IMG/VR virus record: IMGVR_UViG_3300012936_006652
Coordinates: 1-49,016 of that record
Direction: 5' to 3' (one strand)
Length of the DNA: 49,016 bases
Origin: a virus
In this document: positions 33,328 through 45,132 of the stretch, piece by piece
How positions within the stretch are numbered: position 1 is the first letter of the stretch
How the letters are laid out: the number at the start of each line of letters is the position of its first letter
Notes under the pieces: model-generated
What the model was told of the DNA's origin: nothing
Databases searched by the model: none
What the model saw: the letters and a program-made list of their open reading frames with translations, nothing else
Position numbers and translations under genes: made by a program

Positions 33328-36156
33328 ATGACTCTAATACCTTTAAATTATAAAAATTTTGTAAAAAACAAAATAAAAAATACTATAAAGGTAAATTATA
33401 TAAATACAGATAATTTAACTTGGGAGTATGATCAAAATATTAACTCTAAAAGTTTACTTAATTCTGATTATTTTTCAGATATTACTGATGAAGAATGTAA
33501 CTTAGACAGTCAAGATGCAAATCTAGAAAATAAAAAAAGTAATATAAAATCTTTTTTATCTTTTATTCAAGACGATCAATTACAAATTAGTGATTATTTT
33601 CAAAAAAAAGATCAAATAATTCATAGTAATAGTCTAACAAATGATAATTTAAAAAGCTTTAATTTTAGAAATAGATATAAAATAGAAAGAATTAATCAAA
33701 AATTCTTACCGCAAAGCTTTGAGTTACAAAAGAAGAATTATGTTAAAAATAATCTTTATAAAGATTATAGAGAAAACTATTCTTTAGATTATTATAATGA
33801 ACTTAATTTTGGTTTTTGCAACTGGAATACAATAAATTTCTTTTCTCAAAAGTTTGAAAATAACTTACATCACAGTAATTGTATTATTTGGCCTAACCCA
33901 AAAAACGATAATAATAAAAACAATTATAATTTTATCAATAACAGCTTCAACTTTAGTTGTTATTTAAATCTTAGAAAAAATTATAGTAATTATGAAAACC
34001 CAGAATGCTTAATTCACATACCAGATAGACTTTCAATTTATATTATTAAATCATATGATACTGAAACTCATAGAATAGGTATTATTTTAGGTCAAAATTC
34101 AAGAAAAAAGCTTACATCTTTTGAAGCTTTAAACTTTCAAAGTACAAGCAGACAAACAATTAAATCAGAAGGTGTACACGTTACTTCTGATTTAAACATT
34201 ATTAATAATACATGGTATAACTTAAGTTTTAATCATTATTTAAACAGCGATAATTCTGTTAATATTGAAATATATGTTGATGGTCAAATCTTAGATAGTG
34301 TTTTACTAGATCAAACAAAGGAATTTGGATTTACTGATAGCTATATATGTTTAGGTAATAAACCTGAATATCAAGATTCTGTAAACTATAATCACATATT
34401 TCATCAATTCTTTAGTAGGTCTTTTGATAAAGATATATCTTTGGGTAGTAATAATATCTTTGTAAAAGATTTAAATATTGATGTAAATGATGTAAGTTAT
34501 TTAGGAAATGTTACATTTGAAAACAATAACAATTTAAGTGCAGAGTCTTTTCATGGCGAAATTCATGATATTAGATTTTATTCTGAAGTATTAACAGAAG
34601 AGAAAATACTATTTAATAAAGAGAACAGCATTTCATCTTTACAAGAAGAAATCAATAATCATTCTTTATCTTTTTATGTTCCTGTATTTTATATACCTTC
34701 TTATTCAAAAAGAAAAGGACCAATAAATGGATCTGGTGACAAATTAAACTTAAGATATGCTTGTATTTACAATCCTTTTTTAGCAAACGCTTGTGGTGGA
34801 TTAGAAGTATCAGTAGAAAATTACTTAATTGATTTTGTAAATCAGTCAAAACCAAATGTGGTTATTGGAGGAAAACAATCATCTTTTGTATGGGAAGACT
34901 TTACTGCCAATTCAATATCAAGCTTAACAAGCAGTACATCAGATATATCTGATATTAAAACAGGTGAAACACTACAAAGTATTTATAATAAAAATTTAGT
35001 TAATGATCCTACCAATAATTTAAATAACAATCTTTCTTATAGAAATTTATTTATTTTACCTAATGATAATGGAATACAAAAAGTATTTTTTAGTTTGATT
35101 AACGAATTTGTAAACAATTATCAAGAAAAGTATGATGCAAATAAAATTAATTTAGAAAAAAACTATAATATTAGTATTGAAGACATATCTCTTTCAAGTA
35201 ACTACAATAATTCTTGGAGCTTTGATGATACCAAGTCTAATAATATGCCTAATATTATTGATAACAATCTAGATAGTTTTACTATTTCTAAAAATAACAT
35301 TAACAGCGAATTTAACTTAACAAATGATGTTTTATTTAACTTAAGTAATATTATATTTCATGATGATAGAATTACAGATATTACAAATATTAAAAATTCT
35401 ATAGATAATAGTTTTAAAAATAAATACTTAAGGTGTAAAGAAATATATCCTTTAATAGAAAGCAATCCAGTATTAAGAAACTATAAACAAGAAACTGAAG
35501 AGTTGTATTTAAGTTCTGATAATGTTTATCACACAGAAAAATTAGAATATTCAGATGATGTAATAAGTTATTTAAAATTACCAATACCATACTCAGTTAT
35601 TAATAAAGATTATGATAGCTTATTTATAAGTATTTTTGATGTTTCTAGTAAATTGTACAATAAAAAAATTAATAAAAATTCTTTTTCTATTACTGATACT
35701 AATATTTATACAACAAATAATAATGTTACACTAAGCTTTTATGAAAATAAAAAAGGTTTAGTTTACAGAAAAGATTGTTTATCAAAGGTTGCTGATTGGA
35801 ACTACGTAGGACATATTTTTTATAAAGAAGGTATAGTTTCTTTAAATAGACCTGAACTAATATATTTTGGTCAAGAAAACTTTACTTGTAGTTTTGAAAC
35901 TGATTTTTCTATGTTTGTTCATGAAATTAATATTCCAGTAGACAAAGGATATTTTGATAGTTCTTTAAACAATACATACAATGCAGACTTAAGACAAGAT
36001 GAAAGTGCATTTAACTCTGAAGAAAAATTTGTTTATATTACAGATATAAACTTGCATGATGAAAATCTAAATATTGTTGCGAAAGCTAAACTAGCTAGAC
36101 CTGCGCCTAAAAAGAAATCAGATGCAATACTCTTTAGACTTAAAATGGACTATTAA
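33328..36156 (+). CDS. Large virion protein with LamG-like domain and shared C-terminal module
   Basis: A 942-residue protein. Residues about 205-430 form a LamG/concanavalin-like domain: FNFSCYLNLRKNY, LSIYIIKSYD, NTWYNLSFNHYLN, VNIEIYVDGQILDSVLLDQ, SYICLGNKPEY and FHGEIHDIRFYSEVLTEEKI. This is the order of strands and the closing I-x-D-x-R-x-Y-S-x-x-L-T motif usual for the fold. The C-terminal 120 residues match the end of the protein at 31712. LamG domains bind glycans or proteins, so this is a candidate adhesin or fibre protein acting at the cell surface. The last codon overlaps the start of the RuvC-like gene by one base (TAATG), coupling a structural gene to a recombination gene, which is unusual. 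Confidence 0.7.
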   Translation: MTLIPLNYKNFVKNKIKNTIKVNYINTDNLTWEYDQNINSKSLLNSDYFSDITDEECNLDSQDANLENKKSNIKSFLSFIQDDQLQISDYFQKKDQIIHSNSLTNDNLKSFNFRNRYKIERINQKFLPQSFELQKKNYVKNNLYKDYRENYSLDYYNELNFGFCNWNTINFFSQKFENNLHHSNCIIWPNPKNDNNKNNYNFINNSFNFSCYLNLRKNYSNYENPECLIHIPDRLSIYIIKSYDTETHRIGIILGQNSRKKLTSFEALNFQSTSRQTIKSEGVHVTSDLNIINNTWYNLSFNHYLNSDNSVNIEIYVDGQILDSVLLDQTKEFGFTDSYICLGNKPEYQDSVNYNHIFHQFFSRSFDKDISLGSNNIFVKDLNIDVNDVSYLGNVTFENNNNLSAESFHGEIHDIRFYSEVLTEEKILFNKENSISSLQEEINNHSLSFYVPVFYIPSYSKRKGPINGSGDKLNLRYACIYNPFLANACGGLEVSVENYLIDFVNQSKPNVVIGGKQSSFVWEDFTANSISSLTSSTSDISDIKTGETLQSIYNKNLVNDPTNNLNNNLSYRNLFILPNDNGIQKVFFSLINEFVNNYQEKYDANKINLEKNYNISIEDISLSSNYNNSWSFDDTKSNNMPNIIDNNLDSFTISKNNINSEFNLTNDVLFNLSNIIFHDDRITDITNIKNSIDNSFKNKYLRCKEIYPLIESNPVLRNYKQETEELYLSSDNVYHTEKLEYSDDVISYLKLPIPYSVINKDYDSLFISIFDVSSKLYNKKINKNSFSITDTNIYTTNNNVTLSFYENKKGLVYRKDCLSKVADWNYVGHIFYKEGIVSLNRPELIYFGQENFTCSFETDFSMFVHEINIPVDKGYFDSSLNNTYNADLRQDESAFNSEEKFVYITDINLHDENLNIVAKAKLARPAPKKKSDAILFRLKMDY

Positions 36157-36731
36157 TGGATAAAATAAAATATATAGTAGGTTTAGATATTTCTACTTCA
36201 ATTATAGGAATGTCTTTATTTAAAAACAATAATTTAGTTAAGTTAATGCATGTTGATTTAACAAAGACGAAGTGCATGTTTGACAAAGCAAATAAATTCG
36301 AAGAAGAGTTTAATCAGAAAATACTTACAGATATTGAAGGTAATTCTTTAAAAATTAGTGAAATTTATATTGAAGATACCTTGCAAAGCTTTAGTAGAGG
36401 TTTATCTTCAGCAAGAACATTAATGCAACTTTCAAGATTTAATGGTATAGTATCAAATATATCTTTCAGAATGACTAAAATAAAGCCAGTTTTTATTAAT
36501 GTTAACACAGCAAGGAAAACATTAGGAATTAAAATAGATAAAAACTCTAATAAAGATAAAAAAGAACAAATAATGGAATGGGTTGACTCTGATTTAGGAG
36601 GATATAATTGGCCTACAAAAATTATTTCACGAGGGCCTAATAAAGGACATGTAAAATATGAAAAATTTTGTTATGATATAGCAGACGCATATGTAATTTG
36701 TAAAGCTGGTATCATAATAAAAAATGAATAA
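36156..36731 (+). CDS. RuvC-like Holliday junction resolvase
   Basis: A 191-residue protein with the RNase H-like RuvC plan: GLDISTSIIGMSLF at 9-22 (D11 on the first strand), IYIEDTLQSFSRG at 70-82 (E73 on strand 4), INVNTARKTLGIK at 114-126, and FCYDIADAYVICKAG at 171-185 (D174 and D177). The four acidic residues would bind two metal ions and cut four-way junctions symmetrically, clearing branched DNA before packaging. T4 uses an unrelated enzyme, endonuclease VII (gp49), for this step. The gene is joined to the upstream fibre gene by a one-base overlap and overlaps the primase gene by 8 bases. Length is slightly above bacterial RuvC. The family call is firm; the in vivo substrate is inferred. 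Confidence 0.85.
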   Translation: MDKIKYIVGLDISTSIIGMSLFKNNNLVKLMHVDLTKTKCMFDKANKFEEEFNQKILTDIEGNSLKISEIYIEDTLQSFSRGLSSARTLMQLSRFNGIVSNISFRMTKIKPVFINVNTARKTLGIKIDKNSNKDKKEQIMEWVDSDLGGYNWPTKIISRGPNKGHVKYEKFCYDIADAYVICKAGIIIKNE

Positions 36732-37692
36732 ATTAAATAAAAGATTAGATTTTTTCGATAGTTTTTTAAAAAATTATCATTTATCAAAGGACGGTGTAAA
36801 TTTAAACGTTTGGTGTCCTTTTTGTAATAATCCAAATAAACATAAACTTAAACTAGTAATTCACTTAGAAAAATGCTTTTGGCATTGCTGGGTTTGTGAT
36901 AAAAAAGGTTCTAACGTTTCTTATCTCATCAATAAAATAAACAAAAACGTTACTATTCCAAATGGTTTATTTTATAAAAGAAATAACACTAACAGTTTTG
37001 ACTTGTTTGGTGAAGAAGAAGTAATTGAAGAGCTAGATCCTGTTTTTTTACCTGAAAATTTTCAATTTTTTATAGATAACTTTAATCCTGCTTCTCCTGA
37101 TGCAAGAGAAGTTTTTAAATATGCATTAAATCGAGGAACAAATAAGCATAAACTTTGTATGTTAAGAATGGGATTTTCAACTTCCAATGATTTTAGAAGA
37201 TTTTTAATTATGCCTTCATATGACGAAAAAGGTGAATTAAATTATTTTGTCTCTAGAAATATTGATGTTGATACAAGTTGTGGATATAAATATAAAAATG
37301 CAACAATACCAAAAAAACACATTATTTTTAATGAAATTAATATTGATTGGAGTATTCCTTTAACAATTGTTGAAGGTCCTTTGGACTTATTAAAAACAAA
37401 TGATAATGCAACTTGTTTATTAGGATCATCACTTACAGAAGATATGTTGCTTTTTAAAAAAATAGTTAAAAATAAAACAGATATAAAATTAGCGCTAGAT
37501 AGTGATGCATATTCTAAGGCAATTAAAATTGCAAAAACACTTTCAGCATATGACGTAAAAGTAGATATTCTAGATACTAGAGGACCTGATGATATTGGTG
37601 ATATGTCTAGAGATCATTTTAATAAAATATACAGTGAATCTAAAGAATATACAGAAGAAGACTCGCTGCTATCAAAAATAAGAATGTTATAG
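36724..37692 (+). CDS. DNA primase, DnaG-type (zinc finger plus Toprim)
   Basis: A 322-residue primase. The N-terminal zinc-binding part has CPFC (C31, C34) and CFWHCWVC (C51, C55, C58), matching the CHC2-type finger that reads the template; C55 and C58 are the likely second pair. A middle part follows, then the Toprim fold: TIVEGPLDLL at 214-223 with E217 and D221, and KLALDSDAY at 255-263 with D259 and D261 as metal ligands, then DTRGPDDIGDMSRD near 284-297. It would make RNA primers for the lagging strand, working with a replicative helicase that is not encoded in this window. Length is similar to T4 gp61 (342). It lies between the resolvase and the Mre11-Rad50 fusion, forming a DNA-metabolism cassette. 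Confidence 0.9.
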   Translation: MNKLNKRLDFFDSFLKNYHLSKDGVNLNVWCPFCNNPNKHKLKLVIHLEKCFWHCWVCDKKGSNVSYLINKINKNVTIPNGLFYKRNNTNSFDLFGEEEVIEELDPVFLPENFQFFIDNFNPASPDAREVFKYALNRGTNKHKLCMLRMGFSTSNDFRRFLIMPSYDEKGELNYFVSRNIDVDTSCGYKYKNATIPKKHIIFNEINIDWSIPLTIVEGPLDLLKTNDNATCLLGSSLTEDMLLFKKIVKNKTDIKLALDSDAYSKAIKIAKTLSAYDVKVDILDTRGPDDIGDMSRDHFNKIYSESKEYTEEDSLLSKIRML

Positions 37693-37701
37693 GAAAATTA
37701 A

Positions 37702-40700
37702 ATGTTTAAATGCGCACATATAAGCGATGTACACTTTAGAAGTTTAAAAAGACATGATGAGTACAGACAAGTTTTTACGAATTTATTTTTAAAATTAAAA
37801 GAAATAGAATTAGACTGTATTTTTATTGGTGGAGATATTGTACACTCTAAAACACAAGGTATTACACCTGAAATTATTGATGTTTTAACATGGTGGTTTA
37901 ATAGTCTTGCAGACATTGCACCAACACACGTTATTTTAGGTAATCATGACGGTTTGATTTTGAACGAAGACAGACAAGATGCAATATCTCCTATTTTAAC
38001 AGCAATAAACAATCCTAATATATATCTCTATAAAAAAAGCGGTGTATATCCTACTGGTGTAAATGGATATAATTGGTGTGTCTTTAGTTGTTTTGATGAA
38101 AAAGGTTGGGAAGATGTTTACCCAATAGAAGACGAAGTAAACATTGCTTGTTTTCACGGTGCAGTATTAGGATCTACAACTGATGTTGGATGGGAATTAG
38201 AAGGAGAAGTAGGTTTATCATTTTTTAAAGACTATGATTTTGGCTTTTTAGGTGACATTCATAAAACACAATATCTTGATGAAGAAAAAAGAGTTTGTTA
38301 CCCGGGTAGTACTATTCAACAAAACTACGGTGAAGATATTAAAAAAGGTTTTGTTTATTGGGAAATTAATAGTAAAAATGATTTTAAATCTACATTTATT
38401 CAAGTTCAAAATCCACATCCTTATTTAACAATTGACTGGAAAGGTTCTGTAGAAGAAACAATTGATTTTGCTAGACCAGTTAAAAAAGGTGTTAGATTTA
38501 GAATTAGATCAGAGTATGGTTTGTCGCAAGCTGAAATTAAAATTTTGCATTATTATTTAAAAAATGATAAAGAAGCACATGAAATTGTGTATCAAGTTTT
38601 AAACAGTACTAAAGATAAAATAAAGGAAAGTAATACTATTCAACAAAATTCTCAAATTGACATTAGAGATAAGTCTACAAGAATTAAAATATTAAACGAT
38701 TGCTTCGAAGGTTTAGATGAAAAAACTATTGAAGGTTTAGACAATTTATTTGCTGTAAATTTAGATAAAATTCCAAACACACTTTCAGATACAATTGGTA
38801 AAAAATGGTCTATTAATACACTAAATTTTGACAATACTTTTTCCTATGGTAAAAATAATTTTATTAATTTTGATAAATTAAGCGGTGTGGTAGGTATTTT
38901 TGGAAATAATCGTGCAGGTAAATCATCAATTCCCGGCACTTTAATGTACACATTATTTAATGCTACTGATAGAGGAAGTCTAAAAAATCATGATGTAGTT
39001 AATATTAGAAAAGGCTTTTGTAAGTCTGAAGCAATGATAACAATAGGTACAGAGCAGTATTTAGTCTCTCGAGAATCAATTAAAAAGACTAATAGTAAAA
39101 ACATTACTTCTGCGACAACAAAACTTAATTTAACGTCGCTAAATAACAACACAGATGAAAGTGAAGAACAAAGAAGAGAAACAGAAAAAATACTTAGAAA
39201 TTTAATAGGAACATCTGAAGACTTTCTTTATACATCATTTGCATCTCAAGGTGAAATGAATACTTTTATTAAAGAAAAAACTAGTGCAAGAAAAAATGTA
39301 TTATCTAAATTTCTAAACTTAGACATATATGACATGTTAAGTAAAGAATCAAAAGACGACTATATTGTTCTCAGAAATAAAGTTAAAAATTTAAAAGAAA
39401 AAAGTTGGGATGATTTAATAATATCTAATAATAATGAAATAATGGAAATTAAAAAAGATATTAAAAATTTAGAAGAAGAAAGTGAATGCTTAAGAAAAAA
39501 TGAAATTAATTTAAATGTTCAGTTAGATAGAGTAATTAAAAACACTAAAAAACATCCTTCTGGTCACACTAAATCATCTGCAGAAAATGAACTAATTTAT
39601 TTAATTTCAAAATCAGAAAAGCTACATAAAGAAAAAATAGATCTAGAAAATAAACTAAAAAGTAACAAAGAAGCACTAGAAAAATTTAAATTATTTAAAG
39701 AAAAATATCCAATTGAAAACTTAAATAATGATAAAGAAAAATTAGATTCTTTAAATAAAAAACTACAAAAATTAAAAAGTCATAAAAAATTAATAAATGT
39801 TTCTGCAAGAAATGCTAATGATCAACTAAAAATATTAGATCAAGTTCCATGCGGGGACGAATATCCAACATGTAAGTTTATTAAAAACGCACATAGTTCA
39901 AAAAGTGAAATTCAAGAAATTAACAAACAACTAAAAGAAGTAGAAGCTTCTATTTTTGAATATAAAAACTTAATTGAAAATTTAATTAACGAAGGTATTG
40001 AACAAAAAATAAAAAAATACAATGCTATTTTAGCAAAAGAATATCGATATCAAGTAGATCAAAAATCTTTAACTTCCAAAATAGAAGCTTCAGATGTAAA
40101 AATTAATGCTTCTTCACAAGAAATACTCAAGATTAAAGATTTAATTTTAGAGTTAGAAAACTTTAATAGTGAAGATTTAATCATAAAAGAAAAATCCTTA
40201 AAAACAGAATTAAAAGAAAACAATATAAGATTAAGTAATAATAAACATGAGCTATTTAAAAATCAAAAACTAATATTTTCCTTAGAAGAAGAAATACTAA
40301 ATTTAGAAAAAGAAAAAGAAGAATATTCCAAATTAAATGAAGAATATAAAATTTACGATTTATTTTCTTTAGCTGTGTCTAAAAAAGGTATTCCAACAAT
40401 GCTTATTAATTCATGTTTACCTTTAATTAATAAAGAAATTTCTGATATTTTAAGTGGAGTTACTAATTTTAAAATTGAAATTGCTGAAGATGAAAAAGGT
40501 AATAACTTAAACGTATTTATTGACTATGGTGATTCAAAAAGAGTTATTGAATGTGCTAGTGGAATGGAAAAAATGATGGCTTCTATTGCTATAAGAGTAG
40601 CTTTAATTAATATTTCATCCTTACCTAAGTCTGATGTATTTATTATTGATGAAGGTTTTGGTGCATTAGATTCTTCAAACATAGAAGCTTGTGGAAGATT

Positions 40701-40830
40701 ATTAAGTAGTTTAAAAAAATATTTTAAGTCTATAATAATAATATCTCACATAGACGGCATCAAAGATATTGTTGATAAAAATATTGAAATAAGTATTAAA
40801 GGTAAAGACTCGTATGTTCGATTTGAATGA
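37702..40830 (+). CDS. Fused Mre11-Rad50 (SbcD-SbcC; T4 gp47-gp46-like) recombination nuclease
   Basis: One 1042-residue frame holds both subunits. Residues 1-~330 are the Mre11/SbcD phosphoesterase: DVH (9-11), GGD (43-45), GNHD (80-83), FHG (151-153) and GDIH (184-187) supply the metal ligands, and a capping part follows. From about 366 the Rad50/SbcC ATPase begins: Walker A GNNRAGKSS (401-409), Q-loop Q516, long charged coiled coils (~555-705 and ~735-885), zinc-hook cysteines C717 and C724, signature CASGMEKMMA (951-960), Walker B VFIIDEG (979-985) and D-loop GALDSS (987-992). It should process DNA ends and hairpins using ATP. T4 encodes gp47 and gp46 separately, and their summed length (about 900) fits a full fusion. 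The junction region (330-370) is in frame without a stop. It follows the primase by 9 bases and overlaps the zinc-ribbon gene by 17. Confidence 0.93.
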   Translation: MFKCAHISDVHFRSLKRHDEYRQVFTNLFLKLKEIELDCIFIGGDIVHSKTQGITPEIIDVLTWWFNSLADIAPTHVILGNHDGLILNEDRQDAISPILTAINNPNIYLYKKSGVYPTGVNGYNWCVFSCFDEKGWEDVYPIEDEVNIACFHGAVLGSTTDVGWELEGEVGLSFFKDYDFGFLGDIHKTQYLDEEKRVCYPGSTIQQNYGEDIKKGFVYWEINSKNDFKSTFIQVQNPHPYLTIDWKGSVEETIDFARPVKKGVRFRIRSEYGLSQAEIKILHYYLKNDKEAHEIVYQVLNSTKDKIKESNTIQQNSQIDIRDKSTRIKILNDCFEGLDEKTIEGLDNLFAVNLDKIPNTLSDTIGKKWSINTLNFDNTFSYGKNNFINFDKLSGVVGIFGNNRAGKSSIPGTLMYTLFNATDRGSLKNHDVVNIRKGFCKSEAMITIGTEQYLVSRESIKKTNSKNITSATTKLNLTSLNNNTDESEEQRRETEKILRNLIGTSEDFLYTSFASQGEMNTFIKEKTSARKNVLSKFLNLDIYDMLSKESKDDYIVLRNKVKNLKEKSWDDLIISNNNEIMEIKKDIKNLEEESECLRKNEINLNVQLDRVIKNTKKHPSGHTKSSAENELIYLISKSEKLHKEKIDLENKLKSNKEALEKFKLFKEKYPIENLNNDKEKLDSLNKKLQKLKSHKKLINVSARNANDQLKILDQVPCGDEYPTCKFIKNAHSSKSEIQEINKQLKEVEASIFEYKNLIENLINEGIEQKIKKYNAILAKEYRYQVDQKSLTSKIEASDVKINASSQEILKIKDLILELENFNSEDLIIKEKSLKTELKENNIRLSNNKHELFKNQKLIFSLEEEILNLEKEKEEYSKLNEEYKIYDLFSLAVSKKGIPTMLINSCLPLINKEISDILSGVTNFKIEIAEDEKGNNLNVFIDYGDSKRVIECASGMEKMMASIAIRVALINISSLPKSDVFIIDEGFGALDSSNIEACGRLLSSLKKYFKSIIIISHIDGIKDIVDKNIEISIKGKDSYVRFE

Positions 40831-41080
40831 AGGATGGCAAAAAATTGATAATGAAACTGAAGAAAAAATACAAGGTATTGCAAGATATGTCAGACCTATT
40901 GTTTTTGATTTTTGTCCTATTAGTTGTGGTTCTTGCGGTCAAGCGATTGCAACTGTTGAAGATGTTCAAATGATGAAAAAAGAAAAAGTTTGTGAACAAT
41001 GTTATGACATGTTTTACTTTACAAATAAAGATAAATGGAAACAAGGTTGGCGTCCTAAATTAAAAACTGTAGATAATTAA
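40814..41080 (+). CDS. Small zinc-ribbon protein
   Basis: An 88-residue protein with a four-cysteine zinc ribbon: C38-x2-C41 (SCGSCG) and C60-x2-C63 (VCEQCY), plus an extra C34. The knuckles are separated by 18 residues that include a helix (TVEDVQMMKKE). The C-terminus is basic and aromatic (KWKQGWRPKLK), as in nucleic-acid-binding ribbons. The start codon lies inside the last codons of the Mre11-Rad50 gene (17-base overlap), so the products are made together and may act together; this is inference. I cannot give a more specific function. Candidates are a transcription accessory factor or a DNA-binding partner of the recombination machinery. A candidate promoter element begins at the stop codon. 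Confidence 0.75.
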   Translation: MFDLNEGWQKIDNETEEKIQGIARYVRPIVFDFCPISCGSCGQAIATVEDVQMMKKEKVCEQCYDMFYFTNKDKWKQGWRPKLKTVDN

Positions 41081-41483: not shown

Positions 41484-43109
41484 ATGGCACAGCGATTATC
41501 TAGAAATGGTCAAATAAATGAAATCATAAAGTGTGGTAAAGACCCAGTTTACTTTATGAACAAGTATCTAAAGATACAACATCCTATGAAAGGACTAATT
41601 CCTTTCAAGACTTTTCCATTTCAAGATGATTGTGTTAAAGAATTTAATGATAATAGATTTAATATTATTTTAAAGTCTAGACAGCTAGGTTTATCAACAC
41701 TAGTTGCAGCATATTCAGTTTGGCAAGCAATATTCTATAAAGAAAAAAATATTCTTATTATTGCTACTAAACTTGCAGTTGCACAAAACTTTATACGTAA
41801 AGTTAAAACTTATATTAAGTCTATGCCAAAATGGTTATTAGTACCAACAATTACTGCAAATAACAAACAACAAGTAGAATTTTCTAATGGGTCTCAAATT
41901 AAAGCAGTTCCAACTTCTGAGGATGCTGGCCGTTCTGAAGCACTTTCTTTGCTCATTGTAGACGAAGCTGCATTTGTTAGAAATTTTGATGAATTATGGA
42001 TGGGTTTATATCCAACATTATCAACAGGTGGGCGTGCTATTTTATTATCTACTCCTAACGGTGTAGGTGGACAATATCATGAAATATATACTAAAGCTGA
42101 AAGAAAAGAAAACAAGTTTAACCCAATAAAGCTTATGTGGGATGTTCATCCTGAAAGAGATGATGACTGGTTTAATAAAGAAACCAAAAATATGTCACAA
42201 AAACAAGTAGCACAAGAGCTATTATGTGACTTTGCATCTTCAGGAGATACATTTTTAACTAATGAAGTTTTAGAAAAAATAAGACTCACTACAAAATCGC
42301 CAATAGAAAAAAGTGGACCTGAGTATAATGTTTGGTATTGGGAATACCCTTTAGAAGGTGTAAACTATGTATGTTCAGCTGATATTGCAAGAGGTGATAG
42401 TGGTGATTATTCTGCATTTCATATTATTAATACTAAAGATAATTCAATTGCAGTAGAATATAAAGGTAAGATACCTCCAGATCATTTTGCATCTTTGCTA
42501 TATGATATAGCTAGAAGATTTAACAATGCTGTTATATGTCCAGAAAATAATGCATACGGCTATTCAGTATTGACAAAACTAAAAGATTTAGCTTATAAAA
42601 ACATCTATTTTAACTCTGAAAAAGAGAAATATAAATTTTTATATGGTGATGGTACAAACATAGGAAAAGCTGGTTTTACTACAAGTAAAGAAAGTAAAGA
42701 AAAAATTCTTGCTAACTTTGAAGAGTCTTTGAGAAATAGTAGACTTAAAACATATTCTCAAAGACTTTACACAGAATTAAAAACTTTTGTTTGGAATGGT
42801 AAAAAAGTAGGTGCGATGAAAGGATATAATGATGATCTTATTATGTCACTTGCTATTGGATGTTGGATTACAGATAGTAATTCTAGTTCTTATAACGTCG
42901 AACAAATAAAACAAGCTGACTCTTTATTAAAAGGAATGGAAGTTAACAATACTCAGGCAAAAGATACAATAATGTCACCCTTTTATACAAATAGACATAA
43001 TGTTGTTAATCCTTTTATTCCTGTTTATATGCCTGACAACAAATTTTCAGGAAAAGAAATTACAAAAAAGAATCCTCTAGGTGATTTATCCTGGCTTATA
43101 GGAAAATAA
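41484..43109 (+). CDS. 17: Terminase large subunit, T4 gp17-like
   Basis: A 541-residue packaging motor protein. The ATPase domain has the Q-like motif FPFQDD (44-49), a P-loop KSRQLGLST (64-72), Walker B LLIVDEAAF (156-164) and the coupling motif LLSTPNG (187-193). The usual Walker A lysine is replaced by Leu, with K64 at the front of the loop, as in lambda gpA-type motors. The RNase H-like nuclease domain shows SADIARGD (298-305; D300), ICPENNAYG (351-359; E354) and GYNDDLIMSLAI (447-458; D450/D451). It pumps DNA through the portal and cuts concatemers. Length is a little below T4 gp17 (610). It is followed 4 bases later by the portal gene. The family call is firm. Confidence 0.95.
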   Translation: MAQRLSRNGQINEIIKCGKDPVYFMNKYLKIQHPMKGLIPFKTFPFQDDCVKEFNDNRFNIILKSRQLGLSTLVAAYSVWQAIFYKEKNILIIATKLAVAQNFIRKVKTYIKSMPKWLLVPTITANNKQQVEFSNGSQIKAVPTSEDAGRSEALSLLIVDEAAFVRNFDELWMGLYPTLSTGGRAILLSTPNGVGGQYHEIYTKAERKENKFNPIKLMWDVHPERDDDWFNKETKNMSQKQVAQELLCDFASSGDTFLTNEVLEKIRLTTKSPIEKSGPEYNVWYWEYPLEGVNYVCSADIARGDSGDYSAFHIINTKDNSIAVEYKGKIPPDHFASLLYDIARRFNNAVICPENNAYGYSVLTKLKDLAYKNIYFNSEKEKYKFLYGDGTNIGKAGFTTSKESKEKILANFEESLRNSRLKTYSQRLYTELKTFVWNGKKVGAMKGYNDDLIMSLAIGCWITDSNSSSYNVEQIKQADSLLKGMEVNNTQAKDTIMSPFYTNRHNVVNPFIPVYMPDNKFSGKEITKKNPLGDLSWLIGK

Positions 43110-43113
43110 ATAA

Positions 43114-45132
43114 ATGGCACAAGAAAATAATTCAAACTTATTTAAAAAGTTAACAGACCTTTTTAGATCTGGTCCTGTTGTAAGAAGAAAAGTAAAGAAA
43201 TTTAAAGGCAATAGCACTTCTAAGTCTTCTTTAGAAATTTTTAAAAAAGCACATAGTGATGTTTATAATAGTACATTATCTGCTTATGGCTCTTACGATA
43301 GAATGGCAAGATATTCAGACTTCTCAGAAATGGAAGCTACACCTGAAATTAACTCAGCACTAGACATATACTCTGAAGAATGTGTTTCACCAGATGTCGA
43401 AGGTCAAGTTTTACATATTTACTCTGACAATAGAATGATTAAAAAAATATTAGAAGAATTATTTTATGATGTTCTTAATATAGACTTTAATCTTGTAATG
43501 TGGGTTAGAAATCTTTGTAAGTATGGAGACTTTTTTCTGTTTAATGATATTCATCCTGAATATGGTGTAATTAATTGTTTTCCAATTCCTATTGCTGAAA
43601 TTGAACGTGAAGAAGGATTTGATCCAGATGATCCTGCAGCTGCAAGATTTAGATGGGTTACACAAGGTAATCGTGTTTTAGAAAACTGGCAAGTATCTCA
43701 TTTTAGGTTGTTAGGAAATGATGCATTTTTACCATACGGATCTTCTGTTTTAGAAGGTGCTCGACGTATTTGGCGTCAATTAATATTAATTGAAGACGCA
43801 ATGTTAGTATATCGTGTAATTCGATCTCCAGAAAGACGTGTTTTTTATATTGATGTTGGTAATATTCCTCCAGAAAATGTTGCAGACTATCTTGAGCAAG
43901 CACAAACATCTTTAAAAAGAAATGCTGTTGTAGATAAAAATACAGGACAAGTAGACTTAAGATATAATCCACTTTCAGTAGATGAAGACTATTTCTTACC
44001 AGTACGTGGTGGAGACACTGGTACTCGTATTGATACGCTAGCTGGCGGTTCAAATACAACAGCAATTGAAGATGTAGAATATATTCAAAAGAAACTTTTT
44101 GCTGCACTTAAAATTCCTAAAGCATATCTTGGTTATGATGAGGACATTGGTGCTAAAGCAACTTTAGCTCAAGAAGATATTAGATTTAGTCGTACAATTC
44201 AAAGAATTCAAAAAACTATTATTTCTGAACTAAATAAAATTGCGATGATTCATCTTTATACACATGGTTATAACGAAGAAGATTTAATGCAATTTGATCT
44301 AAAGCTAAGTAATCCTTCTTCAATTGCACAACAACAAAAATTAGAACTAATTAGAACTAAATTTGAAATTTCAGGATCAGCTCCTGAAGGGTTGTTAGAT
44401 AGAGAATGGATTCGAAAAAATATTTTAGATCTTAATGACGATGAAATTGCACGAATTGAAAAAGGAAAAGAGAGAGATAAGCTTAGAGATATGGAGCTTG
44501 AAGGTGTGCAACTTCCTAATGACAATCCATTTAGTTTTGGTGACGAAAGTGAGCAAACCGGAGACACAGGTGACGGAAATATGGGTGATATAGGCGGAGA
44601 TACGGGTGGAGACACAGGTGGTGGAGGAGATGAAGGAGGAGGTTTAGAAGGTTTGTTTGCTGGAGAAATGAAAAGTGGAAAATTAATGTCAGAAAAAGAA
44701 TTATCTAAATATGATGATTTAATTGAAGAAATAGACGAGATTGATGAAGTTGATGAAGAAAAAATAAAAGAAATAGGACATTCAGGTGCAAATGTTTCTA
44801 ATAAATCAAAAAAAAGAAAGCCTTATAAGAGAACATCTTCTGAAATTACAGGTGGAGTAGAAAAAATGGGTGCACAAGGAACAGGACTTCATGACACAGC
44901 AGATATGGGCGCTTTAACAGCCGGAAAACCAATAACAGCTTCAGACTTAATGGATGGTATTATGCCACAAAGTCCTATTGTAGACAATTTTATTACTAAG
45001 AAACTAGACTATAGAATGTCTAAGTCTCTTGATAACATGTCTAAACAGCTAAATATTGGTAGTGCTAAACCTAAAATGTTAAACGAGAATGACATACTTA
45101 TAGATGATGATATTTTTAAAGATGAGGAATAA
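43114..45132 (+). CDS. 20: Portal protein, T4 gp20-like, with long acidic/Gly-rich C-terminal extension
   Basis: A 672-residue portal protein. Recognisable gp20-type segments include YDRMARYSDFSEMEATPEI and NSALDIYSEE near 60-90, RVIRSPERRVFYIDVGNI near 231-248, QVDLRYNPLSVDEDYFLPVR near 280-300, and KIPKAYLGYDED with AKATLAQEDIRFSRTIQRIQ near 330-370, which form the wing and stem. It would make the dodecameric ring at the head vertex through which DNA passes and which starts prohead assembly. T4 gp20 has 524 residues; here about 150 extra C-terminal residues follow, beginning with a Gly/Asp repeat (TGDGNMGDIGGDTGG, nt ~44560-44650), then an Asp/Glu/Ile-rich stretch, a basic patch (KKRKPYKRT), and an acidic end. 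The gene begins 4 bases after TerL and ends 2 bases before the next gene. Confidence 0.95.
   Translation: MAQENNSNLFKKLTDLFRSGPVVRRKVKKFKGNSTSKSSLEIFKKAHSDVYNSTLSAYGSYDRMARYSDFSEMEATPEINSALDIYSEECVSPDVEGQVLHIYSDNRMIKKILEELFYDVLNIDFNLVMWVRNLCKYGDFFLFNDIHPEYGVINCFPIPIAEIEREEGFDPDDPAAARFRWVTQGNRVLENWQVSHFRLLGNDAFLPYGSSVLEGARRIWRQLILIEDAMLVYRVIRSPERRVFYIDVGNIPPENVADYLEQAQTSLKRNAVVDKNTGQVDLRYNPLSVDEDYFLPVRGGDTGTRIDTLAGGSNTTAIEDVEYIQKKLFAALKIPKAYLGYDEDIGAKATLAQEDIRFSRTIQRIQKTIISELNKIAMIHLYTHGYNEEDLMQFDLKLSNPSSIAQQQKLELIRTKFEISGSAPEGLLDREWIRKNILDLNDDEIARIEKGKERDKLRDMELEGVQLPNDNPFSFGDESEQTGDTGDGNMGDIGGDTGGDTGGGGDEGGGLEGLFAGEMKSGKLMSEKELSKYDDLIEEIDEIDEVDEEKIKEIGHSGANVSNKSKKRKPYKRTSSEITGGVEKMGAQGTGLHDTADMGALTAGKPITASDLMDGIMPQSPIVDNFITKKLDYRMSKSLDNMSKQLNIGSAKPKMLNENDILIDDDIFKDEE
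44560..44650 (+). repeat. Gly/Asp low-complexity repeat in portal C-terminal extension
   Basis: Imperfect tandem units built on GGWGAYACRGGT-type codons encode GDTG and GGDTGG repeats. The segment lies at about residues 482-512 of the portal, just after the conserved portal fold, and probably forms a flexible linker to the C-terminal extension. Confidence 0.6.

Follow-up and report, generated by a model that had tools for sequence, protein, structure and literature searches.

A single-chain Mre11–Rad50 fusion gene in a T4-like aquatic phage and its re-split relatives

Described two-gene systems and fusions

Phage SbcC and SbcD proteins such as T4 gp46/gp47, T5-like D13/D12 and Listeria phage A511 gp046/gp045 are encoded by two genes and have a CXXC hook (CPTC in T4 gp46 and in Vibrio and Listeria phage SbcC proteins), and the T4 pair is used in recombination-dependent replication and DNA-end processing. 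Fusions of Mre11 and Rad50 were described in 2011 by Yoshida, Claverie and Ogata in Mimivirus (R555), five bacteria (some plasmid-borne), six eukaryotes and Bacillus phage 0305phi8-36 (PMC3175470). The same study showed that aquatic viral metagenomes are rich in R555-like genes, whose scaffolds also carry phage primases, and recorded a His in GDxxH and an Asp for His206 in R555; its authors argued that the order and junction of the fusion are compatible with the separate complex.

We analysed a virus record of 49 kb (the window, meaning the whole stretch of DNA) that carries T4-type head genes and encodes a 1042-aa fusion of this published kind, aquatic phages included. A sequence-only reading of the window had allowed that related phages may already have such a fusion, which the 2011 study bears out (PMC3175470); its statement that the two proteins are separate chains in T4, bacteria, archaea and eukaryotes is not general, given the published fusions. 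The window protein has both domains in frame, a cap and helix–loop–helix (HLH) with a short junction, and the GDxxH/Asp combination. It thus shares domain order, HLH and short junction with Mimivirus R555 and the aquatic R555-like fusions, and shares with R555 both GDxxH and the Asp at the GDIH position. Aquatic R555-like scaffolds adjoin phage primases, and the window fusion likewise follows a primase. R555, from a eukaryotic virus, is 1351 aa long, whereas the window protein is shorter and has a shorter coiled coil.

The best full-length fold matches, covering nearly the whole length, were to Mimivirus relatives (Tupanvirus, Harvfovirus and Yasminevirus) and to Tenacibaculum phages PTm1/pT24; fold matches in the PDB were to Mre11–Rad50/SbcCD. 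The PTm1/pT24 ‘DNA repair exonuclease’ (1310–1318 aa) matches the model nearly full length, but is longer and only 16% identical. The fusion of Bacillus phage 0305phi8-36 is also a phage fusion, but is reported to be without the cap/HLH region and one P-loop segment (PMC3175470). Whole E. coli SbcD and SbcC align across the window protein, although SbcCD has two chains and a longer coiled coil.

The fusion gene and its neighbourhood

The fusion gene occupies 37702–40830 (+) as one 1042-codon open reading frame (ORF), running from ATG to stop without an internal stop, with AGGA 7 nt upstream of the ATG. Pfam matches over the curated cut-offs were obtained for Metallophos at residues 3–178 (2.4e-8) and AAA_23 at residues 376–594 (1.3e-8), and the C-terminus matches SbcC/Rad50 models. 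With an N-terminal Mre11-like and a C-terminal Rad50-like domain in one frame, the locus departs from the T4-type two-gene arrangement; judged by its sequence, it consists of a full SbcD/Mre11-like nuclease followed directly by a full SbcC/Rad50-like ATPase. That Mre11 and Rad50 form a single polypeptide here, the central claim of the sequence-only reading, is confirmed by the frame, the Pfam domains, the motifs and the relatives.

Domain and PHROG matches place a RuvC-like Holliday junction resolvase upstream (36156–36731, +; phrog_827/159), followed by a DnaG-type primase with a CHC2 zinc ribbon (36724–37692, +) ending 9 nt before the fusion start. Downstream, an 88-aa ORF with CxxC pairs (40814–41080, +) overlaps the end of the fusion gene; neither Pfam nor PHROG models matched it at 1e-3, and it is present in 82 of the loci collected. 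It precedes genes for a T4-type terminase large subunit (TerL; 41484–43109, +) and a T4-type portal protein (gp20; 43114–45132, +), both identified by domain and PHROG matches. The order RuvC-like resolvase, DnaG-type primase, fusion, terminase, portal is kept in most relatives with enough flanking DNA. Elsewhere in the window, a glycosyltransferase gene (713–1927) lies upstream of a baseplate wedge gene.

Active sites, apex and junction

The calcineurin-like phosphoesterase (Mre11/SbcD) core spans residues 1–235 (37702–38406, +), as delimited by the Metallophos match, the structural model and invariant columns. Its motifs are D9/H11, GGD (43–45), GNHD (80–83), FHG (151–153) and GDIH (184–187), with D9, H11, D45, N81, H82, H152 and D185/H187 as the named core residues. 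Across 49 aligned relatives, key residues of both halves are invariant or nearly so. The Mre11 metal-ligand set is incomplete at one point: the fourth metal motif reads GDIH rather than the usual GHxH, replacing the first metal-binding His with an Asp (D185, the position of His206 in P. furiosus Mre11) that is invariant in the 49 rows, while the remaining ligands are all present and invariant. The protein also has GDIVH (GDxxH in place of GDxxD), with H48 invariant in the same rows.

The Rad50 ATPase N-lobe covers residues 368–560 (38803–39381, +), with Walker A (GNNRAGKSS) at 401–409 and the Q-loop residue Q516, and is supported by AAA_23 and the alignment with E. coli SbcC. Helices in the model define an antiparallel coiled coil with arms at 541–714 and 728–892 (39322–40377, +). 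The C-lobe (40378–40827, +), which has SbcC/Rad50 C-terminal matches and invariant columns, carries the signature ASGMEK (952–957), Walker B (D983/E984), the D-loop (L989-D990) and the H-switch H1016, completing the Rad50 motifs apart from the hook. At the turn between the coil arms, the model places an interhelix loop of residues 715–727 (39844–39882, +) with conserved columns (VPCGDxxPxCKFI) in which a C717-X6-C724 replaces the CXXC zinc hook; we treat it as a putative, non-canonical hook. C724 is invariant and C717 nearly so in the 49 aligned relatives. The C-X6-C is kept in the family, whereas the spacing is that of CXXC in the relatives from the Microcystis phage and LR756508.

The motifs listed in the sequence-only reading therefore all lie at the expected places, but GDIH is not the usual motif and the zinc hook is not a CXXC. 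Given D185 in place of a His and the C-X6-C hook, neither nuclease activity nor zinc bridging can be taken for granted; both features could make the chemistry of the fusion differ.

Between the two halves lie an Mre11 capping domain (residues 241–299; 38422–38598, +), a flexible cap-to-HLH linker (302–321; 38605–38664, +) with high entropy, and an Mre11 HLH (helices 324–334, 340–355 and 359–364; 38671–38793, +) that aligns with the C-terminal end of E. coli SbcD and is expected to dock on the Rad50 coiled-coil base. An AlphaFold2 model built from the 49-sequence alignment, which omits a row taken from a database record (mean pLDDT 84; pTM 0.47, so that relative domain placement is uncertain) gave the order core 1–235, cap 241–299 with its strands and helices, disorder at 302–317 (pLDDT <50), three helices at 324–364 and a first ATPase strand at 368. 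In profile alignments, E. coli SbcD residues 211–400 (of 407) correspond to profile positions 173–363, covering the cap and HLH, and SbcC begins, from its residue 3, at profile position 371, leaving a gap of only about 7 residues between the SbcD end and the SbcC start. By this alignment the fusion is whole SbcD plus whole SbcC, and its flexible stretch is no new linker but the one that Mre11 ordinarily has between cap and HLH.

In known Mre11–Rad50 complexes, the HLH helices after the linker dock on Rad50. Yoshida, Claverie and Ogata likewise discussed this docking (PMC3175470). The suggestion that the fusion constrains movement of the nuclease found no support, as the join follows the Rad50-docked HLH and the flexible linker at 302–321 is retained; by our inference, fusion at this point should restrict the nuclease no more than docking already does. 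That the fusion fixes a 1:1 ratio, also proposed earlier, follows from the single chain, and changes little because the separate complex is already M2R2.

Among closest relatives, dN/dS at residues 300–370 was 0.10–0.21, similar to the coiled coil, compared with 0.02–0.06 in the core domains. These dN/dS values indicate that the junction is under purifying selection. In the 49 aligned relatives, E294 and W369, on either side of the junction, lie 71–82 residues apart.

Relatives, re-split forms and proposed function

A scan of viral contigs found 41 loci related to the fusion, and a profile scan at least 584 confirmed relatives. One open frame was present in 103 of the 104 collected loci that cover both protein ends (26–88% identity; the total includes the locus of the window itself, and a few contigs enter it twice), giving full-length homologues of the same domain order. 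By sequence, the closest named isolate is Microcystis phage Mel-JY01 (29% over full length by BLASTP), whose protein is annotated only as ‘AAA domain’. In eight longer relatives (74–324 kb), the only AAA_23 match was the fusion, although in two of the eight the search missed even the fusion; one (G005) has two extra small metallophosphatase-like frames. This suggests that the fusion is these phages' only SbcC, with the reservation that the window is a 49 kb fragment and a second, separate SbcC or SbcD may lie elsewhere in its phage.

Among cellular genomes (84,980 species), a first scan found no relative and the profile scan five, two of them full length. All five are in metagenome-assembled genomes and are possibly binned phage contigs, and we rejected a cellular origin. 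A plasmid source was also rejected, the only plasmid arrangement being a separate adjacent sbcD/sbcC pair, 9 nt apart, in Monoglobus. PADLOC assigned LmuB to the Rad50 half only, which is explained by shared SbcC/Rad50 ancestry, and we rejected a defence system.

In some relatives a break within the nuclease part, after GDIHKxQ, interrupts the gene; the window gene is intact. De-duplicated sequences comprised 132 intact and 8 split by one criterion, with loci L229 and L200 (the latter cut at its upstream end) split as well. At this same place, L144, L158, L182, L193, L226, L229, L239, L145 and L200 are divided into two ORFs, the first ending in a tail (for example VELVIDEGDLDKYPGATVLG) and the second starting MSKKIRIR...PWIGYPGS; in several split relatives the two overlap as ATGA. 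In a FastTree tree of the C-terminal part, split forms fell in four places: a clade of five (L144, L158, L182, L193 and L226), L044, L200 and L229. Between the pieces of L044 (LR756508.1, 3001–7163) is a 305-aa ORF matching HNH endonuclease (phrog_1271) and TnsA-like models, and a 298-aa ORF before the second piece of L200 matches homing-endonuclease families. No Rfam match to a group I intron at gathering score was found at the break in LR756508 and others, and a search for a split version in Flavobacterium phage immuto, confined to the region near the terminase, found nothing. Locus L129 (1414–4593) carries 44 extra residues in frame after GDIH; they look like an ORF1 tail plus an ORF2 start, and the gene is possibly a re-joined one.

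Re-splitting of the fusion gene, newly noted here, is seen in four related lineages at least, two of which have homing-endonuclease-like genes at the break. Splits of this sort are known from mobE/nrdA and mobA/gene 60, which the re-split fusion genes resemble (PMC2988022). A broader reading is that aquatic T4-like phages have a single-chain Mre11–Rad50 family with its own C-X6-C apex, in which repeated re-splitting by homing endonucleases in the Mre11 active-site region produces a second ‘gene-in-pieces’ form, comprising an N-terminal nuclease piece and a cap–HLH–Rad50 piece, often ATGA-coupled; we give this generalization about an even chance of being right.

In Listeria phage A511, sbcD and sbcC are adjacent and separate, and in Listeria phage LMTA-57 (3417–6446) the A511-type pair is one 1009-aa CDS running through the intergenic stretch, which could be real or a sequencing error. 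These arrangements and the Monoglobus pair are possible precursors of the fusion. Adjacent pairs and the LMTA-57 annotation also lend some colour to the view that two separate genes of the window look joined because the stop or frameshift between them was lost to a sequencing or assembly error, but the same uninterrupted frame recurs in many separate contigs, and we give that view practically no credence. Relatives sharing the frame across the junction exclude chance as well as error, and answer the concern, raised in the sequence-only reading, of a stop or frameshift at residues 330–370.

A different proposal is that one polypeptide is made and then cut, or is internally re-initiated, leaving a working enzyme of two subunits. 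The two-ORF forms in at least four lineages do indicate that two-chain forms are tolerated. Their breaks, however, fall inside the nuclease (after residue ~190) and not between the halves. In the window gene, ATG is absent from the stretch between codons 2 and 414, and near the junction there are just a few GTG/TTG codons, whose Shine–Dalgarno matches are weak and which lack a good ribosome-binding site; no plausible alternative start for a separate Rad50 chain, as contemplated earlier, is thus present. We consider this proposal very unlikely. It is also unlikely, if somewhat less so, that the nuclease half is altered or dead (GDIH for GHIH) and the protein mainly an ATP-driven DNA end tether. 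The invariant D185 in place of the first His of GHxH would fit such a tether, and the same Asp change is recorded in Mimivirus R555 (PMC3175470), but the other metal ligands are all invariant, the core is under strong purifying selection (dN/dS 0.03–0.05), and GDLH in a T5-like phage D12 subunit shows that the Asp variant is not confined to the fusion family.

The fusion is very probably a single-chain SbcCD/Mre11–Rad50 nuclease of a T4-like aquatic phage, which would act in end processing as an M2R2 dimer and would have arisen by joining of sbcD and sbcC. The chain probably forms a dimer with the usual M2R2 layout, in which two Rad50 heads would close on ATP with two nuclease domains below. 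The HLH would tether each nuclease domain to its own coiled-coil base, and the coils would project to the cysteine-containing apex. By analogy with T4 gp46/gp47, the enzyme most likely serves recombination-dependent replication by opening and resecting DNA ends, and would work there with the adjacent primase and RuvC resolvase. The fusion most likely arose when sbcD and sbcC, lying next to each other, lost the short stretch between them.

Within its published class the observation is ordinary, with modest interest left in the C-X6-C apex and in the recurrent breakage of the gene; the repeated re-splitting shows where in Mre11 an interrupted chain is tolerated. As subunit ratio and pairing are fixed, the 1042-aa single-chain protein is a handy construct for structural and single-molecule work. 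The broad family and its conserved neighbourhood turn the scattered observation of 2011 into a normal trait of a large group of aquatic phages.
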